Assembly: GCA_014607495.2 (NCBI GenBank)
Contig: CP053175.1
Location: 4,588,001 to 4,652,000, forward strand
From: Carposina sasakii
Lineage: Eukaryota > Arthropoda > Insecta > Lepidoptera > Carposinidae
DNA length: 64,000 nt
Reading direction: 5' to 3'
Part shown: one piece after another, positions 3,645 through 55,227 of the stretch
How positions within the stretch are numbered: position 1 is the stretch's first letter
Layout: every line of letters begins with the position of its first letter
The notes under the pieces: model-generated
The model's database searches: none
Told to the model about the DNA's origin: nothing
What the model saw: the letters and a program-made list of their open reading frames with translations, nothing else
Made by a program: the position numbers and the translations under genes

Positions 3645-3942
3645 TAAAATGAGGTAGCCAGAACTGCAACATCATGAAGAAGATCACTTTACAGCCACGT
3701 TTACGAGTAGCATCGCGAGGGTCTATCTAAAAGATCAGTGACAAGCGCTCTCTTACAACATGCACGGATGGAGATGCAGCCAATGTATTCTGACGACATG
3801 CACGGAAGGAGATGCAGCCGATGTATTCTGACGACATGCACGGAAGGAGATGCAGCCGATGTATTCTTACGACATGCACGGAAGGAGATGCAGCCGATGT
3901 ATTCTTATGAAGCCCCGCATTAGCACAGGACCTTCGAGCAGT
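3645..3942 (-). repeat. Family G copy with an internal 4x38-bp array
   Basis: It is in the G minus sense: GGTAGCCAGAACTGC, ACAGCCACGTTTA, AAAAGATCAGTGACAAG, GGAGATGCAGCC, ending GAAGCCCCGCATTAGCACAG. The block normally present once near the end is repeated four times (next entry). Confidence 0.75.
3759..3910. repeat. 38-bp tandem repeat, four units
   Basis: CATGCACGG recurs at 3759, 3797, 3835 and 3873, an exact 38-bp period. Each unit carries GGAGATGCAGCC and ATGTATTCT. It is an expansion inside family G. The ORF through it (3738-3923) simply translates the repeat. Confidence 0.9.
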
Positions 3943-7616: not shown

Positions 7617-7740
7617 GTTTCCGAGTAATTGACCCGGTAGCTCAGTGGTAAGAGCGCTGGCACGGAATGCAGCGGTCGTGGGTACGATTCCCACTCGGGT
7701 GAAGAATTTTTTCCATTTCTTTATTAATAATTTTATAATA
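7617..7740 (+). mobile_element. Family A element with tRNA-like module
   Basis: CCGAGTAATT leads into a tRNA-like block: GGTAGCTCAGTGGTAAGAGC (D arm, A box) and GGGTACGATTCCCACTCGGG (T arm, B box; the usual TTCGATT is changed to TACGATT). It ends GAAGAATTTTTTCCATTTC and TTTATTAATAATTTTATA. Acceptor-like GACCCGG pairs with TCGGGT, but the anticodon arm does not fold cleanly, so it is not called a tRNA gene. Confidence 0.8.
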
Positions 7741-7893: not shown

Positions 7894-8050
7894 ATAACCT
7901 TGCCAATAACGTAAATTAAAAAAAGAGATGGTAAAATTCGTCATCCGAGTAATTGACCCGGTAGCTCAGTGGTAAGAGCGCTGGCACGGAATGCAGAGGT
8001 CGTGGGTTCGATTCCCACTCGGGACGAAGAATTTTTTCCATTTCTTTATT
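7894..8050 (+). mobile_element. Family A element with ~65 bp 5' of the tRNA-like module
   Basis: The copy includes conserved upstream sequence (ACCTTGCCAATAACGTAAAT, AAAGAGATGG, AAATTCGTCATCCGAG) shared with the copy at 15380. It continues through GACCCGGTAGCTCAGTGGTA and GGGTTCGATTCCCACTCGGG to the usual ATTTTTTCCATTTC tail. The tRNA-like block is therefore internal or 3', not the 5' head. Confidence 0.8.
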
Positions 8051-10405: not shown

Positions 10406-10515
10406 GTCATCCGAGTTAATTGACCCGGTAGCTCAGTTGGTTAGAGCACAGCACGGAATGCGTGAGGTCGTGGGTTCGAGTCCCACTCGGGTGAATTTTT
10501 TTTTTTCATTTCTTA
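10406..10515 (+). mobile_element. Family A element with tRNA-like module
   Basis: GTCATCCGAGTTAATTGACC is followed by GGTAGCTCAGTTGGTTAGAG and GGGTTCGAGTCCCACTCGGG. The last two are good matches to the A and B boxes of RNA polymerase III promoters. The 3' end is a T-rich run and CATTTCTTAA. Upstream identity stops at about 10406, another 5' truncation point. Confidence 0.8.
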
Positions 10516-11535: not shown

Positions 11536-11877
11536 TATATAGAACAATACAACAGTCACTCGGAACTAGCGACCCTAGTTCATTACTTTTGCCCGAGGGT
11601 CGGAACAATCGCCTCTTGACTGTGTTTCATTATTATTTGCTCACTCGTTTTAATTGCGATCTGAGTTCTCCCATTTCCTATTTATATTATGATAGTTTGT
11701 TAAGGTATACCCAAGTAGCACAAGAGGCTGTATAGCAACTGAATATTGGACTAGAATTACCCTTGAAGTGGTATAAGAAAGCTGCATAAAAGCTGATTCC
11801 GAGCTTATTCATCCCTTAAACCACTTAAATGGGCACAAATTATTCAGCTCTAATGTCACATAAGCAGGGCGCAGAAT

Positions 11878-12138
11878 CAGAAATTTAAGAGAGTTATAAG
11901 GGATAACAGGTATTGTAAGAGCTGAATATCAACTGGTTAAGAGAACATGTTACTCTTTATTCAGCTGAATACCTAAATAATGTATCACAACGGGCCTGTT
12001 GGTGGTAGAAGCAGAAATTTAAGAGAGTTATAAGGGGTAACAGGTGTTGTGAGAGCTGAATATCAACTGGTTGAGAGACCATGTTACTCTTTATTCAGCT
12101 GCATACCTAAGTAATGTATCACAATGGGCCTGTTGGTG
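11878..12138. repeat. 134-bp tandem duplication inside element M
   Basis: CAGAAATTTAAGAGAGTTAT begins at 11878 and again at 12012. Both units continue through AACAGGT.TTGT.AGAGCTGA and CATGTTACTCTTTATTCAGC to GGGCCTGTTGGTG. They differ at only a few positions. Confidence 0.9.
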
Positions 12139-13808: not shown

Positions 13809-14024
13809 ATCGGCCCTTGGTGCTCTGCCTACCCCGTAAGGGATCATCATCATCATTTACAGCCCTGAGAAGTCCACTGTTGGACATAGGCCTCCCCCAA
13901 CAACCTCCACTCCGACCGGTCGGAAGCAGCCTGCATCCAACGCGACCTTGGCCAGGTCGTCCGTCCACCTCGTAAAGGATAAAGGTAAATAAGGGATAAA
14001 GGCGTGATTATATGTATGTATGTA
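13809..14024 (+). repeat. Family C 3' part split by an RTE fragment
   Basis: ATCGGCCCTTGGTGCTCTGC (to 13844) and GGGATAAAGGCGTGATTATA (to about 14024) are adjacent in intact C copies. Here an RTE 3' end (13845-13970) lies between them. Confidence 0.8.
13845..13970 (-). mobile_element. Family E (RTE LINE 3' end) with 10-bp target duplication
   Basis: The minus strand translates as RWTDDLAKVA, then after an apparent 8-bp deletion as WMQAASDRSEWRLLGEAYVQ and a stop, and ends in (TGA)n. CGTAAGGGAT (13835-13844) and CGTAAAGGAT (13971-13980) flank it. Compare the uninterrupted copy at 40378. Confidence 0.85.
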
Positions 14025-15379: not shown

Positions 15380-15540
15380 AATAACGTTGCCAATAATGTA
15401 AAAAATTAAACATGTAAAGAGATGGTCAAATTCGTCATCCGAGTTAATTGACCCGGTAGCTCAGTTGGTTAGAGCGAAGCACGAAATGCTAGAGGTCGTG
15501 AGTTCAAGTCTCACTCGAGTGAATTTTTTTTTCATTTCTT
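15380..15540 (+). mobile_element. Family A element with conserved 5' extension
   Basis: ATAACGTTGCCAATAATGTA and AAAGAGATGGTCAAATTCGT match the region upstream of the copy at 7894. The tRNA-like block follows: GGTAGCTCAGTTGGTTAGAG and TGAGTTCAAGTCTCACTCGA, a mutated B box. It ends in a T run and CATTTCTTAA. Confidence 0.8.
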
Positions 15541-32655: not shown

Positions 32656-32889
32656 ATCCTACTAATAATATTATAAACGCGAAAGTTTGTGAGTATGGAT
32701 GGATGGATGGATGTTTGTTACTCTTTCACGTAAAAACGGTTAGAGCGATTTTAATAAAAATTTGCTATGGAGTTAGCTGACACCCTGGATTAACACATTT
32801 TATCCCGGGAAAATATTTTTATCCCGGATAATTTCGGCATTTTGTTTTTTCTGCAGTCCACGCGGACGAAGTCGCGGGCGTCCACTAGT
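32656..32889 (-). repeat. Family H, short subtype, well preserved
   Basis: CCTACTAATAATATTATAAA, GTGAGTATGGATGGATGGAT, GCTGACACCCTGGATTAAC and CGCGGGCGTCCACTAGT. It has the same head as the copies at 25056 and 36796. Confidence 0.83.
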
Positions 32890-34555: not shown

Positions 34556-34589
34556 TATAATATAGTGATTCTAGGTTATATTTTAAGTG

Positions 34590-34902
34590 CCATCGAGGAT
34601 TCGCCCACCACCGGGCCCTACACCCTCCGCTGACCCTCGGATCTGCCCGGATGCCTCGGATGTTCGTGATGATCACACGAACACAAGATACTACAGTCGT
34701 AACGTGTTGGGTGTCGGCGAAACATATGTCGATTAACAATTTTAATTAGTTTTCGGATTAGCAGCTACATATTTATGGTTGCATGCTAGGTGCTTGGATC
34801 TGGCTACTCGTTACGACTGTAGTTGTGTTCGTGATCATGAGTCGGCAGATTCGAGGGTCAGCGGAGGGTGTAGGGCCCGGTGGTGGGCGAACCCTCGATG
34901 GA
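34590..34902. mobile_element. J foldback in left arm of palindrome 1
   Basis: Inverted family J ends (CACCACCGGGCCCTACACCC at the left, its complement at the right) enclose about 200 bp. A second symmetric block, TACAGTCGTAACG/CGTTACGACTGTA, lies inside. The mirror copy is at about 42224-42537. Open frames here (34470-34739 minus, 34783-35010 plus) are translations of the repeat. Confidence 0.75.
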
Positions 34903-35112
34903 AATTTGAACTTCCGAGAAGTGACGCCTGATACAATAAAATGTTCCCAAAAGTGGGTTAGCCAGGACTGCAGGATTGTGTTGGAGATGCTACAGCCACG
35001 GTTAGTATAACATAGGTTACAGCCAGCAGTAAGCTGAGGTGGGACCGAGTTTGTGACAGAATACTTCCTGTAATGTAAATATTTTATTTTATTCTTTGTT
35101 ATGTTTCTGTCT

Positions 35113-35145
35113 CAAATAAAGCTTTTCATTCATTCATTCATTCAA
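35113..35145. repeat. (ATTC)n microsatellite, arm-variable
   Basis: TCATTCATTCATTCATTCA in the left arm corresponds to a longer GAATGAATGAATGAATGAAT run at about 41975-42000 in the right arm, one of the length differences between arms. Confidence 0.8.
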
Positions 35146-35206
35146 CATGGTCAGATGGTCATGGTGAGTGACAACATTCTTGCTCATCGTCTGTAGCCTT
35201 GATTTC

Positions 35207-35524
35207 AGGGGATCTACTCTGAAATGCCGCTTTCGAATCTTTCTGTCCGACCGAAGCCCGACCGAATCGAAGCCTTTGACCCTACTACGAAATTGCTTCG
35301 GATTCATTCATCTGAGTTCACAATTCATTCGGAACCATAGAGAATAATTCACATTGACTAATATAATAAGCTTTCTATTATCTAGCCTTATACCTGTCAA
35401 ATAGAGTTCGATCGGACCGAATGAAAAAACGGCGCGACTGATCCGATCGAAGGAAGTTCGTAGTAGGAAACACCTCGATATTCGGCCGATACTTCGTTTA
35501 TCGTCACTTCAGAGTAGACCTCCT
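35207..35524. mobile_element. 318-bp TIR element in palindrome 1 left arm
   Basis: AGGGGATCTACTCTGAAATG at the left pairs with CACTTCAGAGTAGACCTCCT at the right. CCGAA/TTCGG words are repeated inside (GACCGAAGCCCGACCGAATC, GATCGGACCGAATG). The mirror copy is at about 41600-41915. No ORF and no target duplication identified. Confidence 0.7.
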
Positions 35525-35599
35525 GGAAGGAGATGCCGCTGATGTTTTTTTTAGTAAAGCCCCGCATCATAGAACCTCTCGGTCCGTAAGCACATAGAT

Positions 35600-35870
35600 T
35601 TTGAACTAAAAACTCTGTTAGGATGGCGGCCGACTTGTTTTAAAAAAAACAAGTCACCACCTAAGTTTATTATTTAAACACTATATCTATTAACTTTATA
35701 TAGTTAGGCACAGCTTTACTTTCACAATCCACGGTGGAGTGGACACATAGATGCACCAGGCCGGCAGGAAGGGAAACCAGTTTGCTAGTACTGACTCGCT
35801 AGCGTTACGCTGATCGCATCTTATTATTTACTACAAAAATGGAATTGGTGCAATTCAGCAATAAGTATAT
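35600..35870. other. Left-arm-only segment of palindrome 1
   Basis: Sequence between the CCTCTCGGTCCGTAAGCACA region and ACAGTTCGTGCTTACCCC has no mirror of equal length. The right arm instead has a short, GC-rich junction near 41460-41545. Either an insertion on the left or a deletion on the right. Confidence 0.65.
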
Positions 35871-36502
35871 ATTTGGAGTATGTAACAGTTCGTGCTTACC
35901 CCACAGCACAGGTATATATTATAATAGCACTACTTATACAACATACCTACGCTGCTACCAAAGTTGGGAGTTAGTTTTGTTAAACATCGAATAGAAAAAA
36001 ATAATCTAAGATTTCAAAATTATTGCATAGTAAATAATACTGATCATTTTTGTTATTTTCCTATCTACAAATCCACTATGCACTATGCACCAGTTAATTA
36101 AAAAGCAGTTCACTGTCGATCTGGCTTATAACTAAATTAAATATTGACTTAAAATTTTTAATGGCTTTGAGTTCTGAATTTTTGCAAGCATTAGCTTTCA
36201 GATAAAAGTTTAATTGATAAAATAGGAATTATGTTCCTCCATTTGCTCTAATTTTTCGTTATTTGTTTGGAATTTCTGAAAACTAAAATGATGAAATAAG
36301 AAAATCTTGTGTCGTGTTTTTTATTATTATCAGCATATCAGTATTAGTTAGAGAAACATCTATGACTATCTATTGACCGCGACTCCGCTCGCTCGATAAT
36401 CGAATATTATCGCGCGGTGGTGCCACCTACCGCAATAAAAAGTAGCCTATCTCCTTTCTCGGGCTCTAGACTATTTGTGTACCAAATTTCATTCAAATCA
36501 GT

Positions 36503-36694
36503 TTAGTAGGTTTGCCGTGAAAGACGGACAAACATACACACACACACACTTTCACACCTCGCGGGTGGCCTTCCCACGCTGCGCTTGCCGATACGTGGTA
36601 ACTCTAGAACTTTCCGACTCCATCGGCCATCAGTTCTTCGAGCTATGTGCCCATGTGTATATAACGTATATAATAGGTATATTAATATTTGCAC
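36503..36694 (-). pseudogene. RTE LINE C-terminus truncated by a deletion (left arm)
   Basis: The minus strand reads GHIARRTDGRWSRKVLELPR, then IGKRSVGRPPAR, a typical RTE-type tail. It then runs abruptly into GTGTGAAAGTGTGTGTG instead of the expected (W)ADDL continuation. Compared with the right arm (40378-40620), about 310 bp are missing, with GT/GTG microhomology at the join. SINE B sequence (GGATTCGAACCCCATACATA) adjoins it. Confidence 0.75.
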
Positions 36695-36765
36695 CTACCA
36701 GGATTCGAACCCCATACATATATTGCTGCAGACAGGGTCACTACCAACCACGTCAATCACATGTT
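36690..36765 (-). repeat. SINE B head in left arm
   Basis: CACCTACCAGGATTCGAACC (B box, complement) and CAGACAGGGTCACTACCAAC (A-box side). The mirror copy is at about 40285-40352. Confidence 0.75.
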
Positions 36766-36795
36766 AACACAATTTTAACGAAAAATATTTACTAT

Positions 36796-37015
36796 TATTG
36801 GACGCCCGCGACTTTGTCTGCGTGGACAGCAGAAAAAATAAAAAGGAAATTGCCGGGATAAAAATATTTTCCCGGGATAAAAAGTATGTGTTAATCCAGG
36901 GTGTCAGCTAACTCCATATTAAATTCTATTAAATTCTATTAATTCGCTCCAGCCGTTTTTACGTGAAAGAGTAACAAACATCCATACTCACAAACTTACG
37001 CGTAAGTATAATATT
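36796..37015 (+). repeat. Family H short subtype in left arm
   Basis: TTGGACGCCCGCGACTTTGT through TCCCGGGATAAAAAGTATGT to TCCATACTCACAAACTTACG. The right-arm mirror (about 40083-40250) lacks about 50 bp of the tail. Confidence 0.8.
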
Positions 37016-37017
37016 AT

Positions 37018-37266
37018 ACAGAAAGGGTATGTTAAGCGAAAAGCTGTATAAATAGCCCATTGTTGGAGAACCTATTTCCAAAATTTGTAACTCAACCATT
37101 TTTATTTTTCAAGTGTATCATCTGAGATATTTAAAATTTTTATTTTTCATCATTGTATCGGGAAAAATAAACATGTGATTTCGGATCTCAAATTTTGTGG
37201 ATAGGTTCTCTATAGTGGGCTATTTACATAGCTTTTCGCTTAACATCCTCTTTCTGTTACACCCTG
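37018..37266. mobile_element. Family K mariner-like MITE, left arm
   Basis: The right end ...CTTTCTGTTACACCCTG is followed by TA. The left terminus has lost about 10 bp (GGGTGTAATA). Interior arms with GTTAAGCGAAAAGCTGTATA and its near complement form long inverted repeats. It keeps about 80 bp that the right-arm copy has lost. Confidence 0.75.
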
Positions 37267-37534
37267 TATAGTAGGATTTTAAATATCAAAATAAAGGCAC
37301 AAAACAGTATAAAAAGAGACATTTGATATTCATAAATGGCATAACTTAAATATTTATATTTCGGTAAAACATGGCCAGTAGTAATTACCGCTGCTACATG
37401 TTTACGAGTACATTAATTATTCATGTATTTACTTATCATGCTCTGAGCGTATTATTTGCTGAAATCAAGGTATTTTTTATTCAAAGCTGTTCAGAAATAA
37501 AACGGCGTAAGGGAAGGTAATTATTTACTCCTGT

Positions 37535-37725
37535 GCTGATGCGGTGCTTCACTAATATACATCAGCTGCATCTCTTTCCGTGCATGTCGTAAGATTACTG
37601 TCGTGGTGATGTCGTTGACTAAAGAACTCGGGCATTCTCTCAGGCGATGAACTAGCAACTTGTCAATGATCATTTACATCAGTCGCCGCGATTCTAAACG
37701 TAGCTGAGGGATCTCCTATATCCTT
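37535..37725 (+). repeat. Family G copy in left arm
   Basis: GTGCTGATGCGGTGCTTCAC, ACATCAGCTGCATCTCTTTC, CTCAGGCGATGAACTAGCAA and GATTCTAAACGTAGCTGAGG. The mirror is at about 39455-39645. Confidence 0.82.
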
Positions 37726-37737
37726 CAACCCTTACTA

Positions 37738-37945
37738 ATATTATAAATGCGATAGTAACTCTTCTATCTGTCTGTCTGTCTGGCTTTCACGCCAAAACTA
37801 CTGAACTGATTGAAATGAAATTTGGGAAGAGTTTGGGAAATGATATAGGCTACTTTTCATCCTGAGAAAATATTTTTAACCCGGATAATTTCTAAATTTC
37901 GATTTTTCTGCAGTCCACGTGGACTGAGTTGCAAGCGTCCATTAG
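37738..37945 (-). repeat. Family H in left arm, diverged subtype
   Basis: ATATTATAAATGCGATAGTA, CTGTCTGTCTGTCTGGC, TTGGGAAGAGTTTGGGAAAT and GCAGTCCACGTGGACTGAG. The mirror copy (about 39222-39440) differs by several substitutions, for example GAGTTTGGGAAA against GAGTTTAAGAAA. Confidence 0.8.
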
Positions 37946-38140
37946 TTAATTATATGGGGCTAACTAATTCAATATTTAAACACATACAATCACCCTGCTA
38001 CGGTCGCAATGAAATCACAGCTACCGTTTTCAGTGGTCACAATAACTCAAGGACACAATCAGCACGAGAGAGCCACTCGCGCGCAAATTAAACACACCCG
38101 GCCACCTATCAACAGAGCCGTCTGAATAATTGACTAGACA

Positions 38141-38221
38141 ATGGCGGATATGGCTGTGCTGATAAATAACTTTTGGTCTTTTTTACCGGGATCGACCTAT
38201 CCCCTGCAACTCCTGTAAGCC
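38141..38221 (+). other. Short ORF after ATGGCGGAT, identical in both arms
   Basis: ACAATGGCGGATATGGCTGT starts a 26-codon frame (MADMAVLINN...), stopping at TAA near 38219. The right-arm copy on the minus strand is the same over this stretch. The context is good for insect initiation, but the peptide is short and matches nothing known to me. Confidence 0.25.
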
Positions 38222-38572
38222 AGGATCAACAGAGGCAACCAGAAAAATGCAAAAAATGCATAGAAAATTTGGTCTTTTATAATCAACGCGATTCTATCTA
38301 TCAAACCCGGTATAGGTATGTATACAAGCTTAATAATGAGCTGGACTTTCGTCATATTTGCTTGCTGATTTGCTTTTCTGAGAAATGACATTGATATTAA
38401 TAAAGTCGAAATTAAGACTAAATTACTAGTAACCAGCAATTAATTCTAGTGGAGTATGCGCTAGTCCTTGTAGCTTCGTTGGCTATATACCGCTTATTTT
38501 AGTACCTTTCTACTAGATGGATTTGTTTATCTATTATTCATTCATAGTTGTTGAAACACTGGCTAGGGTAAC

Positions 38573-38610
38573 GGTGTGTAACAAAAAATATAAATATTTG
38601 TTTATACACA
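38573..38610. other. Spacer of palindrome 1
   Basis: 38 bp, mostly A/T, between perfectly matching 20-bp arm ends. AATATAAATATTTGTTTATA is itself weakly symmetric. Confidence 0.9.
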
Positions 38611-39895
38611 GTTACCCTAGCCAGTGTTTCAAGAACTATGAATGAATAATAGATAAACAAATCCATCTAGTAGAAAGGTACTAAAATAAGCGGTATATAG
38701 CCAACGAAGCAGTTTAATCTTTAGTACTAGCAATTTAGTCTTAATTTCGACTTTATTAATATCAATGTCATTTCTCAGAAAAGCAAATCAGCAAGCAAAT
38801 ATGACGAAAGTCCAGCTCATTATTAAGCTTGTGTATACAATATACCGGGTATTACCTATACCGGATTTGATAGATAGAATCGCGTTGATTATAAAAGACC
38901 AAATTTTCTATGCATTTTTTGCATTTTCTGGTTGCCTCTGTTGATCCTGGCTTACAGGAGTTGCAGGGGATAGGTCGATCCCGGTAAAAAAGACCAAAAG
39001 TTATTTATCAGCACAGCCATATCCGCCATTGTCTAGTCAATTATTCAGACGGCTCTGTTGATAGGTGGCCGGGTGTGTTTAATTTGCGCGCGAGTGGCTC
39101 TCTCGTGCTGATTGTGTCCTTGAGTTATTGTGACCACTGAAAACGGTAGCTGTGATTTCATTGCGACCGTAGCAGGGTGATTGTATGTGTTTAAATATTG
39201 AATTAGTTAGCCCCATATAATTAACTAGTGGACGCTTGCAACTCAGTCCACGTGGGCTGCAGAAAAATCGAAATTCAGAAATTATCCGGGTTAAAAATAT
39301 TTTCTCAGGATGAAAAGTAGCCTATATCTTTTCTTAAACTCTTTCCAAATTTCATTTCAATTTTTTCAGTACTTTTGGCGTGAAAGCCAGACAGACAGAC
39401 AGATAGAAGAGTTACTATCGCATTTATAATATTAGTAAGGGTTGAAGGATATAGGAGATCCCTCAGCTACGTTTAGAATCGCGGCGACTGATGTAAATGA
39501 TCATTGACAAGTTGCTAGTTCATCGCCTGAGAGAATGCCCGAGTTCTTTAGTCAACGACATCACCACGACAGTAATCTTACGACATGCACGGAAAGAGAT
39601 ACAGCTGATGTATATTAGTGAAGCACCGCATCAGCACAGGAGTAAATAATTACCTTCCCTTACGCCGTTTTATTTCTGAACAGCTTTGAATAAAAAATAC
39701 CTTGATTTCAGCAAATAATACGCTGAGCATGATAAGTAAATACATGAATAATTAATGTAAACATGTAGCAGTGGTAATTACTACTGGCCATGTTTTACCG
39801 AAATATAAATATTTAAGTTATGCCATTTATGAATATCAAATGTCTCTTTTTATACTGTTTTGTGCTTTTATTTTGATATTTAAAATCCTACTATA

Positions 39896-40065
39896 CAGGG
39901 TGTAACAGAAAGAGTAGAAATTTGAGATCCGAAATCACATGTTTATTTTTCATACAATCTTGAAAAAAAAAATGTGATTTCAAGTTACAAATTTTGGAAA
40001 TAGGTTCTCTATAGTGGGCTATTTATACAGCTTTTCGCTTAACATACCCTTTCTATTACACCCTG
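39896..40065. mobile_element. Family K mariner-like MITE, right arm, with TA duplication
   Basis: CAGGGTGTAACAGAAAG and CTTTCTATTACACCCTG are 17-bp TIRs with one mismatch, flanked by TA on both sides (39894-39895 and 40066-40067). TA duplications are the Tc1/mariner hallmark. The left inner arm is deleted compared with the copy at 37018. Confidence 0.85.
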
Positions 40066-40377
40066 TATAATATTATACTTATGCGTAAGTTTGTGAGTAT
40101 GGATATAATATGGATATAATATGAGCTGACAACCTGGATTAACACATACTTTTTATCCCGGGAAAATATTTTTATCCCGGATTTTCGGAATTTCGACTTT
40201 TTATTTTATCTGCTGTCCACGCAGACAAAGTCGCGGGCGTCCAATAATAGTAAATATTTTTCGTTAAAATTGTGTTAACATGTGATTGACGTGGTTGGTA
40301 GTGACCCTGCCTGCAGTAATATGGGGTTCGAATCCTGGTAGGTGCAAATATTAATATACCTATTATATACGTTATAT

Positions 40378-40620
40378 ACACATGGGCACATAGCTCGAAG
40401 AACTGATGGCCGATGGATTCGGAAAGTTCTAGAATGGATACCACGTATCGGCAAGCGCAGCGTGGGAAGGCCACCCGCGAGGTAGGCGGACGACCTGGCC
40501 AAGGTCGCGGGCGTCAGTTGGATGCAGGCGGCTTCCGACCGGTCGGAGTGGAGGTTGTTGGGGGAGGCCTATGTCCAACAGTGGACTTCTCAGGGCTGTA
40601 AATGATGAATATGATGATAC
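40378..40620 (+). pseudogene. RTE LINE C-terminus, right arm
   Basis: It reads GHIARRTDGRW, KVLE, RIGKRSVGRPPAR, a TAG in place of the usual W, then ADDLAKVAGVSWMQAASDR, SEWRLLGEAYVQQWTSQGCK and stop, with ATGATGAATATGATGAT following. It is the least damaged RTE tail in the window and shows what the left arm lost. Only the post-RT C-terminus remains. Confidence 0.85.
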
Positions 40621-42570
40621 ACATGGTTGCGTTCCCAACAATGGGCTATTCAGAACTGCTGAAACACGAAGAAGAAACAAAGCCACTTTTGGCATAGCAA
40701 AGATTAATATGATAAACGGCACCTTGGTATTGCTGTAATGCCGTCAAGTCCGTGTAATAAATAAATAAATGATGAATGAATATGCTATTATTATAAATGT
40801 GAAAGTGTGTGTGTGTGTATGTTTGTCCGTCTTTCACGGCAAACCTACTAAACTGATTTGAATGAAATTTGGTACACAAATAATCTAGAGAGAAAGGAGA
40901 TAGGCTACTTTTTATTGCGGTAGGTGGCACCACTTCGCGATAATATTCGATTATTAACAAACGAAGTCGCGGTCAATAGCTAGTCATAGTTGTTTCTCTA
41001 ACTAATACTGATATGCTGATAATAAATAAACACAAGATTTTCTTATTTCATCATTTTAGTTTTCAGATATTCCAAACAAATAACGAAAAATTAGAGCAAA
41101 TGGAGGAACATAATTCCTATTTTATCAATTAAACTTTTATCTGAAAGCTAATGCTTGCAAAAATTCAGAACTCAAAGCCATTAAAAATTTTAAGTCAATA
41201 TTTAATTTAGTTATAAGCCAGATCGACAGTGAACTGCTTTTTAATTAACTGGTGCATAGTGCATAGTGGATTTGTAGATAGGAAAATAACAAAAATGATC
41301 TGTATTTTACCATGCAAAAATTTTGAAATCTTAGATTTTTTTCTTTCTATTCGATGTTTAACAAAACTAACTCCCAACTTTGGTAGCAGCGTAGGTATTT
41401 TGTATAAGTAGTGCTATTATAATATATACATGTGCTGTGGGGTAAGCACGAACCTTTTTACGCGGCGCGGCGTAACGCTAGCGAGTCACTAGCAAAATCT
41501 ATGTGATTCTAACGTTACGGACTATCGAGAGGTTCGTGCTTACCCCTATGATGCGGGGCTTTACTAAAAAAAACATCAGCGGCATCTCCTTCCAGGAGGT
41601 CTACTCTGAAGTGACGATAAACGAAGTATCGGCCGAATATCGAGGTGTTTCCTACTACGAACTTCCTTCGATCGGATCAGTCGCGCCGTTTTTTCATTCG
41701 GTCCGATCGAACTCTATTTGACAGGTATAAGGCTAGATAATAGAAAGCTTATTATATTAGTCAATGTGAATTATTCTCTATGGTTCCGAATGAATTGTGA
41801 ACTCAGATGAATGAATCCGAAGCAATTTTTTAGTAGGGTCAAAGGCTTCGATTCGGTCGGGCTTCGGTCGGACAGAAAGATTCGAAAGCGGCATTTCAGA
41901 GTAGATCCCCTGAAATCAAGGCTACAGACGATGAGCAAGAATGTTGTCACTCACCATGACCATCTGACCATGTTGAATGAATGAATGAATGAATGAATGA
42001 AAAGCTTTATTTGAGACAGAAACATAACAAAGAATAAAATAAAATATTTACATTACAGGAAGTATTCTGTCACAAACTCGGTCCCACTTCAGCTTACTGC
42101 TGGCTGTAACCTATGTTATACTAACCGTGGCTGTAGCATCTCCAACACAATCCTGCAGTCCTGGCTAACCCACTTTTGGGAACATTTTATTGTATCAGGC
42201 GTCACTTCTCGGAAGTTCAAATTTCCATAGAGGGTTCCCCCACCACCGGGCCCTACACCCTCCGCTGACCCTCGAATCTGCCGACTCATGATCACGAACA
42301 CAACTTCAGTCGTAACGAGTAGCCAGATCCAAGCACCTAGCATGCAACCATAAATATGTAGCTGCTAATCCGAAAACTAATTAAAATTGTTAATCGACAT
42401 ATGTTTCGCCGACACCCAACACGTTACGACTGTAGTATCTTGTGTTCGTGTGATCATCACGAACATCCGAGGCATCCGGGCAGATCCGAGGGTCAGCGGA
42501 GGGTGTAGGGCCCGGTGGTGGGCGAATCCTCGATGGCACTTAAAATATAACCTAGAATCACTATATTATA

Positions 42571-42589
42571 CTTTATTAGAACTATATTA
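42571..42589. other. 19-bp junction between the two giant palindromes
   Basis: ATTAGAACT occurs at 42575-42583 and again at 42586-42594, an 11-bp-period direct repeat. Its second copy runs into the edge of palindrome 2. Confidence 0.85.
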
Positions 42590-45500
42590 GAACTTTAGTT
42601 AAAATTGCATGATAATATTGCAAAGTTTAGAAAACTAAAACGTTTTGCGCTCGGAGCAAGAACGTAATAATAATTCACACACATTTTACCCGAAGCGCTC
42701 TGGCAGGAGGGTTATATTTGTACTTGTGTATATAAGTTTTAATGTGTGTATTTTCTTCGGCATCTTATGTAGGATTCTCGATCGAATCGATAGACGTTCG
42801 ACGTCGTAATATTTCTTCAGAAGTCTGACTAGAATACATCAGCTGCATCTCTATTCGTGCAAGTCGTTAGAATCGACTAAACTATACAATGCATCGAAGT
42901 ATTACATGTAATTTTTGTTTTACTTCAAATTTTGTAGGAATGGTAACAAAAACTAACACCTCTGTCACAAAAATGATTTTTTTTTAAATTTTTCATACAA
43001 AATCAGATCTTAAGTTTCTTATTACTTTCTTATCAAGAATACAAACATTTATTTTTAGCTAGCTCCATGTGACGGAATTCTTAATATAAACATTTAAAAA
43101 ATATTATCCAAAACCACTTTTGTCACGTTGTTGTTTCTTAAAACATAAAACTTTTTAATTGTATGAAAGTCTTTCATTAAAGTTACCTGAAAATCTGGTG
43201 AACAGCTTTATTGTATAGAATGTAATAATAGAAAACGCTATTTTTGTAAATATTACACTACACTACTTTGTATTTAAATTATAAGGGGGTCAAAATGTGA
43301 CCGACTGGTTAACGACGTGAAGGAGTGGTAAATAGTGATTACGTACAGAACAAAGTTCATCTTAAACAGTTTAATATTTAAAAAAAAACAATAGCTTTTA
43401 CTTCTGCAACGATTTTAGTGTTAAATTTGCTCTTTTCACGACACTGTCGTTGTTTCAGATTGTACCATTTTTTCATTTACTTGATGGTAACACGTCAAAT
43501 GAACAAAATAATCGACGATGTACTATTGTATTGATATAATATCCAACATAAGAAAATTTACAATTAACTAATATAAAAATGAATTAGGGCTCAACTTTCA
43601 TACAAAAACGACCACTCCGTCACGAGCTTTACCACTCTGTCACATTTTTTGTTACAGAGATGCTCCGTGACGGAGGTGTAAAATAGTAATGTTCGAGATT
43701 TTCAGCATTTACCTTATTATGATTTATACATAAAACTGGGCATTTATGAAATATTTATTAATAATAAATTAAATAATATTAAAATACAGAAATTACAAAA
43801 CCATTTGGAAGTAGTAACTTACGTGACAGAGCGGTCGCTTAATAAACCCACGCACCTCCTTTTACTGTTTGCAACCAATTTAATGGAGTTGGCGGCATGT
43901 AGGGACGCATAGCGTGGGTCCGGGCTCGAGGGGGACTATGCTCTCGTCTAGTGACTACGGTCAAAATTGCGATCGCATATTATTTTGTACCTTAAAATAA
44001 GTGACAGAAGGTAGCAACAAAAATCACATACGTCGGGAGACACCTAATGAAATATTTTTTATTTAATAAAACAAACATTAAAAAATATTACTTGTTATTA
44101 ATTTAATAACAACGGTTAAGTAGTACAGTAAATGTTTTCGGATAAAAGCTTTTAATATGATTTTTTTCAAAGAGAGCAGTTTGTTTAGATTAGTGGTCAC
44201 AGAGGGACACATTAATTTTGTATGTAAAACACCTACGTCACGCTTTTTGTATACTATGTCACAGTAATTTTGTAAAAAATATACTAATAATTAAAATCTA
44301 GATTTGAAGATATTATAATTGTTGCACTATCAAGTATATTTTTGTAAACAAAAAAAATTAAAATGTAGAATTTTGCAGCTATAACATTTTTTTGACGGAG
44401 AAGACACGTGATTGTCGATAAAATAGAAGAACGTCCCATTTACATCTGTCCCCGCTATGGTAAACGTTGCTGTGAGATCTCCTTCTCTTAGAGTTTAGAA
44501 TACCCAATTATTGGAAAATAGCGGTGTTTATGTACATATAAACACCGCTATTTTCCAATAATTGGGTATTCTAAACTCTAAGAGAAGGAGATCTCACAGC
44601 AACGTTTACCATAGCGGGGACAGATGTAAATGGGACGTTCTTCTATTTTATCGACAATCACGTGTCTTCTCCGTCAAAAAAATGTTATAGCTGCAAAATT
44701 CTACATTTTAATTTTTTTTGTTTACAAAAATATACTTGATAGTGCAACAATTATAATATCTTCAAATCTAGATTTTAATTATTAGTATATTTTTTACAAA
44801 ATTACTGTGACATAGTATACAAAAAGCGTGACGTAGGTGTTTTACATACAAAATTAATGTGTCCCTCTGTGACCACTAATCTAAACAAACTGCTCTCTTT
44901 GAAAAAAATTATATTAAAAGCTTTTATCCGAAAACATTTACTGTACTACTTAACCGTTGTTATTATATTATAAACAAGTAATATTTTTTAATGTTTGTTT
45001 TATTAAATAAAAAATATTTCATTAGGTGTCTCCCGACGTATGTGATTTTTGTTGCTACCTTCTGTCACTTATTTTAAGGTACAAAATAATATGCGATCGC
45101 AATTTTGACCGTAGTCACTAGACGAGAGCATAGTCCCCCTCGAGCCCGGACCCACGCTATGCGTCCCTACATGCCGCCAACTCCATTAAATTGGTTGCAA
45201 ACAGTAAAAGGAGGTGCGTGGGTTTATTAAGCGACCGCTCTGTCACGTAAGTTACTACTTCCAAATGGTTTTGTAATTTCTGTATTTTAATATTATTTAA
45301 TTTATTATTAATAAATATTTCATAAATGCCCAGTTTTATGTATAAATCATAATAAGGTAAATGCTGAAAATCTCGAACATTACTATTTTACACCTCCGTC
45401 ACGGAGCATCTCTGTAACAAAAAATGTGACAGAGTGGTAAAGCTCGTGACGGAGTGGTCGTTTTTGTATGAAAGTTGAGCCCTAATTCATTTTTATATTA

Positions 45501-46478
45501 GTTAATTGTAAATTTTCTTATGTTGGATATTATATCAATACAATAGTACATCGTCGATTATTTTGTTCATTTGACGTGTTACCATCAAGTAAATGAAAAA
45601 ATGGTACAATCTGAAACAACGACAGTGTCGTGAAAAGAGCAAATTTAACACTAAAATCGTTGCAGAAGTAAAAGCTATTGTTTTTTTTAAATATTAAACT
45701 GTTTAAGATGAACTTTGTTCTGTACGTAATCACTATTTACCACTCCTTCACGTCGTTAACCAGTCGGTCACATTTTGACCCCCTTATAATTTAAATACAA
45801 AGTAGTGTAGTGTAATATTTACAAAAATAGCGTTTTCTATTATTACATTCTATACAATAAAGCTGTTCACCAGATTTTCAGGTAACTTTAATGAAAGACT
45901 TTCATACAATTAAAAAGTTTTATGTTTTAAGAAACAACAACGTGACAAAAGTGGTTTTGGATAATATTTTTTAAATGTTTATATTAAGAATTCCGTCACA
46001 TGGAGCTAGCTAAAAATAAATGTTTGTATTCTTGATAAGAAAGTAATAAGAAACTTAAGATCTGATTTTGTATGAAAAATTTAAAAAAAAATCATTTTTG
46101 TGACAGAGGTGTTAGTTTTTGTTACCATTCCTACAAAATTTGAAGTAAAACAAAAATTACATGTAATACTTCGATGCATTGTATAGTTTAGTCGATTCTA
46201 ACGACTTGCACGAATAGAGATGCAGCTGATGTATTCTAGTCAGACTTCTGAAGAAATATTACGACGTCGAACGTCTATCGATTCGATCGAGAATCCTACA
46301 TAAGATGCCGAAGAAAATACACACATTAAAACTTATATACACAAGTACAAATATAACCCTCCTGCCAGAGCGCTTCGGGTAAAATGTGTGTGAATTATTA
46401 TTACGTTCTTGCTCCGAGCGCAAAACGTTTTAGTTTTCTAAACTTTGCAATATTATCATGCAATTTTAACTAAAGTTC
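42590..46478. repeat. Giant palindrome 2: 3.9 kb, near-perfect, 8-bp spacer
   Basis: The arms are 42590-44530 and 44539-46478. The centre is GCGGTGTTTA, spacer TGTACATA, then TAAACACCGC. The outer edges are GAACTTTAGTTAAAATTGCA and its complement. In the parts I compared, only rare differences appear (for example near 44100 against 44965, and 44160 against 44910). Each arm carries a family G copy split by about 1.5 kb of unique AT-rich DNA with repeated GTGAC-GAG-GG words. No coding frame is supported. The flanks beyond the edges differ, with no obvious target duplication. Confidence 0.95.
42828..44500 (+). repeat. Family G copy split by 1.5-kb AT-rich DNA (left arm)
   Basis: CTAGAATACATCAGCTGCAT with ATTCGTGCAAGTCGTTAGAA (to about 42890) is the start of G. 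CATTTACATCTGTCCCCGCT and ATGGTAAACGTTGCTGTGAG (about 44437-44485) resume it. The intervening sequence is not a family recognised elsewhere in the window. The mirror copy occupies the right arm. Confidence 0.7.
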
Positions 46479-47074: not shown

Positions 47075-47743
47075 TTATCTTACTACTCTCAATAGAGCTT
47101 CCGTTTGTTCATAAGTAAGGTTCTGAAGAAATTTTGAAACTGTCTTTTTGCATAGGTAATATTTTAAGGGTTGCAAGTTAAGTTCTTTATTTAGTTTATT
47201 ATAGAGGTAACCTCCCAGAAAATATTCACTTCCTTGACTGGCGACACATCTAAGGTAAGGAGTTTTAAAAAGTCTACCTCGTCTTCGAATGTCATTTCGG
47301 TCACTATCTAATGATCCAGCCTCTCTGTGCTTCCTAAGAACGACATTGAGAATAAAGAGTTGCCTCACCGTCAGTACCAGCGCTCTTCCATATAGTGATG
47401 AAGTCGGGAAAAGATATGGCAGTGCTAGGCTGACTTTGAGAACAGCTCTCTGTGCCATCTCAAGTGGAAGCATATGCGTCATACAGGTACCCCCCCACAC
47501 ATTTATACAGTATTGCAGAAGAGGCTGACATAGGGTGAAGTAAATCATTCGTGTAATTTTTGGGTCTGCAACGTTTCTCATGGTTCTAAAAACAGCCATC
47601 AACTTGCGAATCCTGTTAGCCTGTGACTGTAAGTGTGATTGGAAAGTAAGTTTGTTGTCAATTACAACGCCAAGATACCTAATCTCAGCAATAGGATCCT
47701 TTTGGAGTATGTGATCAATCCAGTTCCACTTGTCGTGTTTGTA
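47075..47743 (-). pseudogene. LINE reverse-transcriptase C-terminal ORF, open 222 codons
   Basis: The minus frame has a stop at 47744-47746 and is then open to the terminator at 47075. IRYLGVVIDNKLTF (near 47690-47640) is the conserved (Y)LGVxID block just after the polymerase palm of non-LTR reverse transcriptases. MIYFTLCQPLLQYCINVWGG is the following conserved region (A..Y/H.L.YG...WG), then a basic tail. The catalytic YADD motif lies upstream and is missing. The enzyme would copy LINE RNA at a nicked target; this copy cannot. The absence of stops over 222 codons suggests a young insertion. It is the longest open frame in the window. ATG context is irrelevant, since the start is a truncation point. 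Confidence 0.88.
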
Positions 47744-49329: not shown

Positions 49330-49528
49330 ACGGCGCTGCTGTGTTCTAGAACTGGAAAGGGGGTATTCCCCATCCAGTCACTACCAGCCGTCCTCTTTAA
49401 GTCATCGGTCCATCTGGCCGGAGGGCGCCCCACGCTACGCTTGCCGAGGCGCGGTTTCCATTCGAGAACCCGTTTACTCCACCGTCCATCGGTTCTACGA
49501 CAGATGTGGCCTGCCCACTGCCACTTCT
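49330..49528 (-). pseudogene. RTE LINE C-terminal fragment, frame intact
   Basis: The minus strand is open throughout, about 62 codons. It reads WAGHICRRTDGRWSKRVLEW, KPRLGKRSVGRPPARWTDDL and KRTAGSDWM, then diverges (GNTPFPVLEHSS). It is the best-preserved version of the RRTDGRW...GRPPARWTDDL tail in the window. Neither the polymerase domain nor the WTAIG end is present. Family G sequence starts directly after it. Confidence 0.85.
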
Positions 49529-54126: not shown

Positions 54127-55227
54127 GACCTATTTTTAACCCCCGACGCAAAAACAACGGGGTGTTATAAGTTTGACGTGTCTGTGTGTAAATGTGTATG
54201 TGTCTGTCTGTGGCATCGTAGCTCCCAAACGGATGATCCGATTTTAATGCGGTTTTTTTTGTTTTAAAGGTATATCAGTAGAGAGTGTTCTTAGCTATGT
54301 TTGGTGGAAATCGGTTCAGGTCTTCAAGGTCATCAGGTCGTTTGTTAGGTGTGATAGGAATGTTATACGCTCAGTTTGCTTGCAAGCATATGTGGGATCT
54401 GACATTTGAAACACTAATGTCTTATGGAACCACTGAGCTGGTCTGCTGTTAGGACTCGAAGATAGGAGACGTAACCCTGGACTGCCTTTCAGTAAACCCA
54501 TCGATTTTGGGCTCGTTGGATTTGTCTTAACTAGTTCTCTTTATGTTTCTAATTGACGAGGACCTGATGCTGGAAATCTGGAACCTCTGAGCTGGTCTGA
54601 TGATAGGGCTCGAAGGTAGGAGCCGTAACCCTGGTCTACCTTTTAGTAAACCCATCGAGTTTGGGCTCGTTGAATTTGTCTTGACTGGTTCTCTTCATGT
54701 TTCTAATTGACGGGGACCTGATGCTGGAAATGGGATGGGCGGATGAAACCCTGGAATGCCGGAATGAAACGGATAAACCGATTTATATTTTTGCTGAAAA
54801 TCTAGAATGACCAAAGTTTAATCTTTATTGTTTCTTAATCTCTGCAATTCTCCCAGAGTCAGTTTGTCATGAGGATTGTTAAACAGCTTCCTTTGGTCGA
54901 GATCGCATATAGCGACCCCATCTAAACTTTTTACGTGGCGAAAAATAAAAGAAATTAAATGAAAGAATGAAAAATTAAGGAACTCCTCCAAAAAGCATGA
55001 AATAAAAAAATAAATTTAAAAAAAACCCCGACCCAAAAAAAGTACGGAATTATTATGACAAAAGGTTTAAAATGCTAAACCCTATAAAAAACAAAAAATA
55101 ACTTTTAACACTACGTAAGTACCAACTAAAGCATGGCAGACTATCTACTCGGGACTTTGTGCCACCTTTATGTCGGAGGCATAACCGCTAATTTTGAACT
55201 GCAAATGGTTATCTTGGCCTGCTGTTG
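54127..55227. repeat. CCCCCGACGC-type interspersed repeat with tandem duplication
   Basis: AACCCCCGACGCAAAAACAA, GGGGTGTTATAAGTTTGACG, GTGTCTGTCTGTGGCATCGT and AGCTCCCAAACGGATGATCC form a repeat type I know as common in Lepidoptera, probably a LINE 3' UTR (from memory). The region to about 55227 (AACCCCGACCCAAAAAAAGT, GGGACTTTGTGCCACC) looks like more of it. Confidence 0.55.
54427..54737. repeat. 164-bp tandem duplication
   Basis: GAACCACTGAGCTGGTCTG starts at 54427 and GAACCTCTGAGCTGGTCTG at 54591. Both units continue through GTAACCCTGG, TTTTGGGCTCGTTG-like and TTTCTAATTGACG.GGACCTG to GATGCTGGAAAT. Identity is high with scattered changes. Confidence 0.88.

Follow-up and report, generated by a model that had tools for sequence, protein, structure and literature searches.

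Two abutting kilobase palindromes with unequal arm divergence in Carposina sasakii point to probable successive fold-back duplications

Inverted duplications in described systems

The foldback and Galileo transposons of Drosophila carry long inverted arms around a short middle, and the arms of the foldback elements are made up of short tandem repeats. In yeast, interstitial fold-back insertions of 2 to ~150 bp, mostly shorter than 14 bp, are found at breaks and arise from microhomology beside the break through the action of polymerase delta and end joining, as set out in the available part of the report (PMC11724301). Yeast foldback inversions, as described in the accessible portion of a second report, may have loops of less than 15 nt and stems as short as 4 bp; Mre11 and Sae2 suppress such small loops, and in strains where both are intact the loops are larger, with a median of 36 nt (PMC7467729).

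The locus described here lies in a window of 64,000 nucleotides of Carposina sasakii, this being the whole stretch of DNA that was analysed, and comprises two neighbouring palindromes, A and B (Table 1). With the local fold-back insertions of yeast, as far as the available text characterizes them (PMC11724301), they have in common an interstitial position and, on the interpretation given below, a fold-back at short inverted homology and capture of the second end by end joining, but they differ in having arms of 1.9 and 4.0 kb and in apparently comprising two events in succession. The short loops of A and B and the short, AT-rich self-complementary stretch at which each would have started are compatible with the yeast foldback inversions; the latter were, however, selected as gross rearrangements and are resolved by secondary rearrangements in the part of that study consulted (PMC7467729), whereas A and B are local and interstitial. 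In humans, large inverted duplications are of the same inverted kind as A and B and turn, as A and B may also have done, at short inverted homology or at repeats, but in the excerpted account their spacers span 766-70,466 bp and they are mostly terminal with an associated deletion, while A and B are interstitial and turn within 4-6 nt (PMC3907307). In its long, near-identical inverted arms, B furthermore resembles the sex-chromosome palindromes that are kept alike by gene conversion, as outlined in the portion of the source available (PMC3723533). Unlike these, A retains no sign of conversion after clustered differences are collapsed, and no gene was recognised in the arms. Among the matches listed for palindromes in Lepidoptera, fold-back in insects and adjacent or tandem palindromes there was no obvious counterpart, which does not imply absence from print.

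Structure and repeat content of the palindromes

Self-BLAST and alignment of the arms confirmed the two long inverted repeats, and the short stretch that separates them, at the coordinates proposed in a sequence-only reading of this DNA. The arms of both, in length and identity, are far beyond what chance would produce. When the window was scanned for inverted repeats with ungapped arms of at least 40 nt within 1 kb, five of the 13 pairs found lay outside A and B, with arms of just 48-72 nt. Both palindromes occur once within the window by self-BLAST, their edges are abrupt and the flanks on both sides are unrelated.

Table 1. Coordinates of the palindromes and associated repeat segments within the window
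Feature	Position	Strand	Description	Basis
Palindrome A, whole	34556-42570		ends 19 bp before palindrome B	self-BLAST
A left arm	34556..38589	+	315-bp deletion relative to right arm	arm alignment; inner end from inverted-repeat scan
A central loop, 4 nt	38590..38593	.	flanked by 117-nt arms, 95% complementary	
A right arm	38594..42570	-	inverted copy or original	self-BLAST, arm alignment
Segment exclusive to A right arm, 315 bp	40484..40798	.	part of dispersed repeat	
Stretch separating A and B, 19 bp	42571..42589	.		self-BLAST
Palindrome B, whole	42590-46478		one inverted repeat, 99.64%	self-BLAST
B left arm	42590..44531	+		self-BLAST, arm alignment; inner end from inverted-repeat scan
B central loop, 6 nt	44532..44537	.		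inverted-repeat scan
B right arm	44538..46478	-		self-BLAST, arm alignment
Dispersed repeat W, 5' part	42828..42888	+	in B left arm; mirror copy in right arm	
Dispersed repeat W, 3' part with TA-rich tail	44437..44540	+	crosses B fold-back point	

Palindrome A is composed of collinear inverted blocks which run inward from 34556 and 42570 with identities of 98.6, 95.1, 93.7, 85.2 and 94.2% (self-BLAST). Over 3,590 aligned columns its arms show 123 substitutions together with 27 gap runs, which total 835 gap bases; one of these runs (56 bases) is merely the central spacer, leaving 26 indels within the arms. As a palindrome A is thus imperfect, with indel-rich islands interspersed among near-identical, difference-free tracts. 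The centre, initially read as a 38-bp spacer, is in fact an imperfect stem (38473-38589 against 38594-38710) closing on the 4-nt loop, and no match to it was found elsewhere within the window. Two of the indels can be polarised. Window copies at 13843-13972 (90.6% identity) and 49401-49511 (71.2%) align across the inner edge of the 315-bp segment of the right arm, and as the repeat continues past this edge, the left arm must have lost the 315 bp. Conversely, 51 bp exclusive to the left arm lie within a repeat copy that can be matched to 32707-32887 along its entire length, and the loss of these 51 bp is therefore assigned to the right arm. With one loss in each, the two arms of A have had separate later histories. 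A hairpin element is present near both outer ends of A (34585-34906 and 42220-42541), with 63-nt arms that are 90-94% complementary and 196 nt apart; a partial relative is located at 1123-1236.

The arms of B align over 1,944 columns with six substitutions, two of them within the central loop, and a single homopolymer gap of 1 bp. Three of the substitutions are grouped at 44097-44103, and none falls within the outer 1.5 kb. The 8-bp spacer originally attributed to B proved to be the 6-nt loop. Both A and B hence consist of collinear inverted arms about a short turn, the structure of a fold-back inverted duplication. The present centres of both are AT-rich and self-complementary, a property which the duplication itself confers on them.

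Two candidate features at the edges were rejected. For a continuation of A across the 19-bp stretch there was no significant similarity (P 0.50-0.84 by three nulls). A tandem duplication at the edges of A, where the sequence outside resembles that inside with 14 and 13 matching bases when gaps are allowed, is not claimed; the likeness reached P 0.04 when compared with random positions in the window and 0.10-0.12 when compared with locally shuffled sequence, and the two edges, being mirror images, are not independent in this test.

Matches to other parts of the window make up 29-30% of each A arm, as compared to 13-41% in 12 background segments of 4 kb. These matches belong to several unrelated dispersed families, arranged as a mosaic and present elsewhere in the window, and A as such resembles ordinary background DNA that was copied in inverted orientation. 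By the same within-window test 8% of the B arm is repeat, most of the arm being seen nowhere else in the window. Within B, the two ends of the dispersed repeat W are separated by ~1.5 kb of unmatched DNA. The fold-back point of B seems, from the alignments, to coincide with the TA-rich tail of W: three of the eight BLAST rows for the 3' part extend to 44539-44540 (67-69% identity). The other five end at 44478-44483, so that just 3/8 rows reach the fold-back point, which counts against folding of B at this tail. A 38-bp tandem array of 4.1 copies, built of the W 5' part, is situated at 3751-3907. No repeat crossing an outer edge of A or B, which would reveal the original arm, was seen in the window. 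Repeat motifs of the window such as GACATAGGCCTCC are, we take it, of a moth or butterfly kind. A literature text search with three repeat motifs, including GACATAGGCCTCC, found no paper, and the W-family pattern had no matches in the viral_contigs collection, from which near-host records may be absent.

Divergence of the arms and relative age

The two palindromes differ strongly in the divergence of their arms. Away from gaps and three islands, the arms of A show 39 differences over 2,982 sites (54 over 3,074 with the islands kept), while those of B show four over 1,938 sites outside the loop, forming two clusters (Fisher P 1.4e-5 for 39/2,982 against 4/1,938). The site counts were made differently for the two: A was masked near gaps and over three islands chosen by visual inspection, a step that lowers the count of A, and the B counts were taken by hand from the arm alignment. 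The contrast is also seen when clustered events are compared (26 against two; Fisher P 2.8e-4) and in the indels within the arms (26 against one; P 1.7e-4). With ~1.3% substitution between its arms and many indels, A appears old. The simplest reading of these sequence differences would be that B is younger than A; the near-identity of the B arms could also reflect gene conversion rather than youth.

The raw substitutions of A are clustered (dispersion 2.18; P 0.0002). When those within 15 bp are collapsed, 26 events remain, with a dispersion of 0.75 (P 0.64) and a longest identical run that is unremarkable (P 0.77). Gene conversion between the A arms is accordingly not claimed, the collapsed events being scattered as by chance despite the raw clustering. 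The differences in B are too few to reveal conversion tracts. Comparison of 34556-38563 with 38600-42570 furthermore showed that A substitutions are denser within dispersed repeats (19/842) than outside them (20/2,140; Fisher P 0.007), an excess that may stem from ectopic conversion or from errors in polishing.

As the arms of A have diverged far more than those of B, it is unlikely that both palindromes formed at once in a single event, unless the B arms were made alike by gene conversion. The proposal of a shared mechanism, namely fold-back replication at one fragile site, thus fits best of those first put forward in regard to mechanism and place, but is to be amended to two successive events, with the same proviso for conversion in B.

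Origin of the palindromes and neighbouring features

We suggest that A and B are probably two successive fold-back-primed inverted duplications, captured through end joining, and that the earlier one either favoured the formation of the later or set its limit. Both would be interstitial inverted duplications of genomic DNA, produced by the same type of accident at different times. At a double-strand break, the resected 3' end may have paired with itself at a short, AT-rich stretch of self-complementarity, with just a few nucleotides left in the loop, and primed synthesis along its own strand for ~4.0 kb in A and 1.9 kb in B, after which the copied strand would have been joined to the other end of the break. 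A would have formed first and B later, beside it. As a hairpin or cruciform, A may have been a structural hazard: either it caused the DNA to break a second time, or its hairpin in the template brought the copying to a halt just before its edge, and B would be later and adjoin A for this reason. Observed in the sequence are the small loops, the sharp edges, the lack of a target-site duplication at the exact edges, the unequal divergence of the arms and the centre of B at a repeat tail; the break, the fold-back priming, the end joining, which palindrome came first and the part played by A in the origin of B are inferred. Counting against fold-back duplication are the 1.9- and 4.0-kb arms, which exceed the ~150 bp of the yeast interstitial insertions, and the suppression of small-loop hairpins by Mre11 and Sae2 in that organism.

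The unusual feature of the locus is that just 19 bp lie between two palindromes of differing apparent age. One tentative extension of the fold-back model is that, during the fold-back synthesis of B, the polymerase heading towards A was halted at the hairpin of A, and that palindromes may grow in this way as chains from one fragile site in the animal germ line. The 1.9-kb arm length of B would then equal the distance from break to barrier, and B would for this reason end 19 bp from A. Instability is expected of palindromes with kilobase arms and loops only a few nucleotides long, and A nevertheless seems old. If the two ages hold, the locus would preserve a natural history of fold-back repair recurring at a single site in the germ line of an animal, and abutting palindromes of different age would allow it to be asked whether one provokes or delimits the next.

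Transposition and artefact are both less likely than fold-back duplication. It is unlikely that A, B or both represent non-autonomous transposons of the foldback, Galileo-like or giant MITE type, with terminal inverted repeats of extreme length, that inserted side by side. The long inverted arms and short middle are shared with the Drosophila foldback and Galileo elements, the edges are sharp with differing flanks, and the B arm, most of which is seen nowhere else in the window, would allow B to represent one family. The pair of foldback transposons envisaged in the sequence-only reading is, however, at odds with several results. The exact edges of A, of B and of A and B taken together have no target-site duplication, and a search for shifted (up to 10 bp) or palindromic duplications at the same three sets of edges found nothing above chance (best P at least 0.28; 300 random placements each). 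A palindromic TA or TATA duplication could be hidden in the ends of A, but B yields just a 2-bp TA, and this after trimming of 8 bases. The arms furthermore lack the tandem-repeat make-up of foldback elements: A has four small arrays of 26-47 bp, B has no array at all, and the A arms are a mosaic of unrelated repeats. No remnant of a transposase, integrase or polymerase gene was found among open reading frames of at least 110 amino acids, of which B has none and A three; the three match no Pfam family at E 0.01.

It is quite unlikely that either palindrome, or the pair, is a fold-back artefact of sequencing or assembly. The near-identical arms of B would be expected of such an artefact, fold-back reads make up ~0.55-0.6% of Nanopore genomic reads, with virtually none in the few PacBio samples examined, in the part of the survey available (PMC12870357), and artificial palindromes are produced by whole-genome amplification, according to the sections seen of two further reports (PMC6218980, PMC13265396). 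The A arms, however, differ by the substitutions and 26 indels enumerated above, one of the latter polarised as the 315-bp deletion, and this divergence argues against a same-molecule fold-back for A. Two haplotypes could plausibly diverge to this degree too, but had they been joined head to head, the sequence should continue as a mirrored copy of the left flank, which is absent here. Both palindromes moreover return sharply to unrelated flank, such that two misjoins would be needed for each, B included.

A comparably low probability is given to the insertion at a break of palindromic pieces that were made elsewhere or extrachromosomally (hairpin-capped or template-switched), neither arm being native. 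The placement in yeast of inverted sequence pairs from one distant locus at breaks, in the available part of PMC11724301, and the hairpin-capped extrachromosomal DNA proposed for inverted copy-number variants, in that of PMC10766183, are consistent with such an origin, but if A and B had been inserted together, their arms should have diverged to an equal extent, and the divergence observed is unequal. Very improbable is a single origin of A and B, through breakage and fusion or a chain of template switches, followed by gene conversion that kept only the B arms alike, for although A and B lie so close together and conversion holds the arms of human Y palindromes at >99.9% similarity in the text available (PMC3723533), A lacks conversion-like clustering after the 15-bp collapse, and sister fusion, which had been considered at the outset, would by itself not yield the different, unrelated flanks on the two sides of each palindrome.

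If transcribed, B would give rise to nearly perfect double-stranded RNA. In the moth Trichoplusia ni, long hairpin RNAs are among the sources of endogenous siRNAs, as stated in the part of the source available (PMC5844692), and by analogy it is a reasonable idea that A and B could serve as hairpin sources of small RNAs.

Several further features were observed in the window. At the gathering score, Rfam returned four tRNA matches and nothing else. These tRNA-like matches, all on the plus strand (7631-7702, 7955-8026, 10422-10494 and 15450-15522), lie inside mutually similar repeats, which are perhaps tRNA-derived SINEs. A 222-amino acid open reading frame on the minus strand (47075-47743) itself matches no Pfam family; ten homologues were identified among 127 candidates, two of them with a reverse transcriptase domain (PF00078), and from its sequence the frame is probably a LINE remnant. 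Two-copy tandem duplications are located at 11873-12138 (unit of 134 bp) and 54425-54731 (unit of 154 bp).
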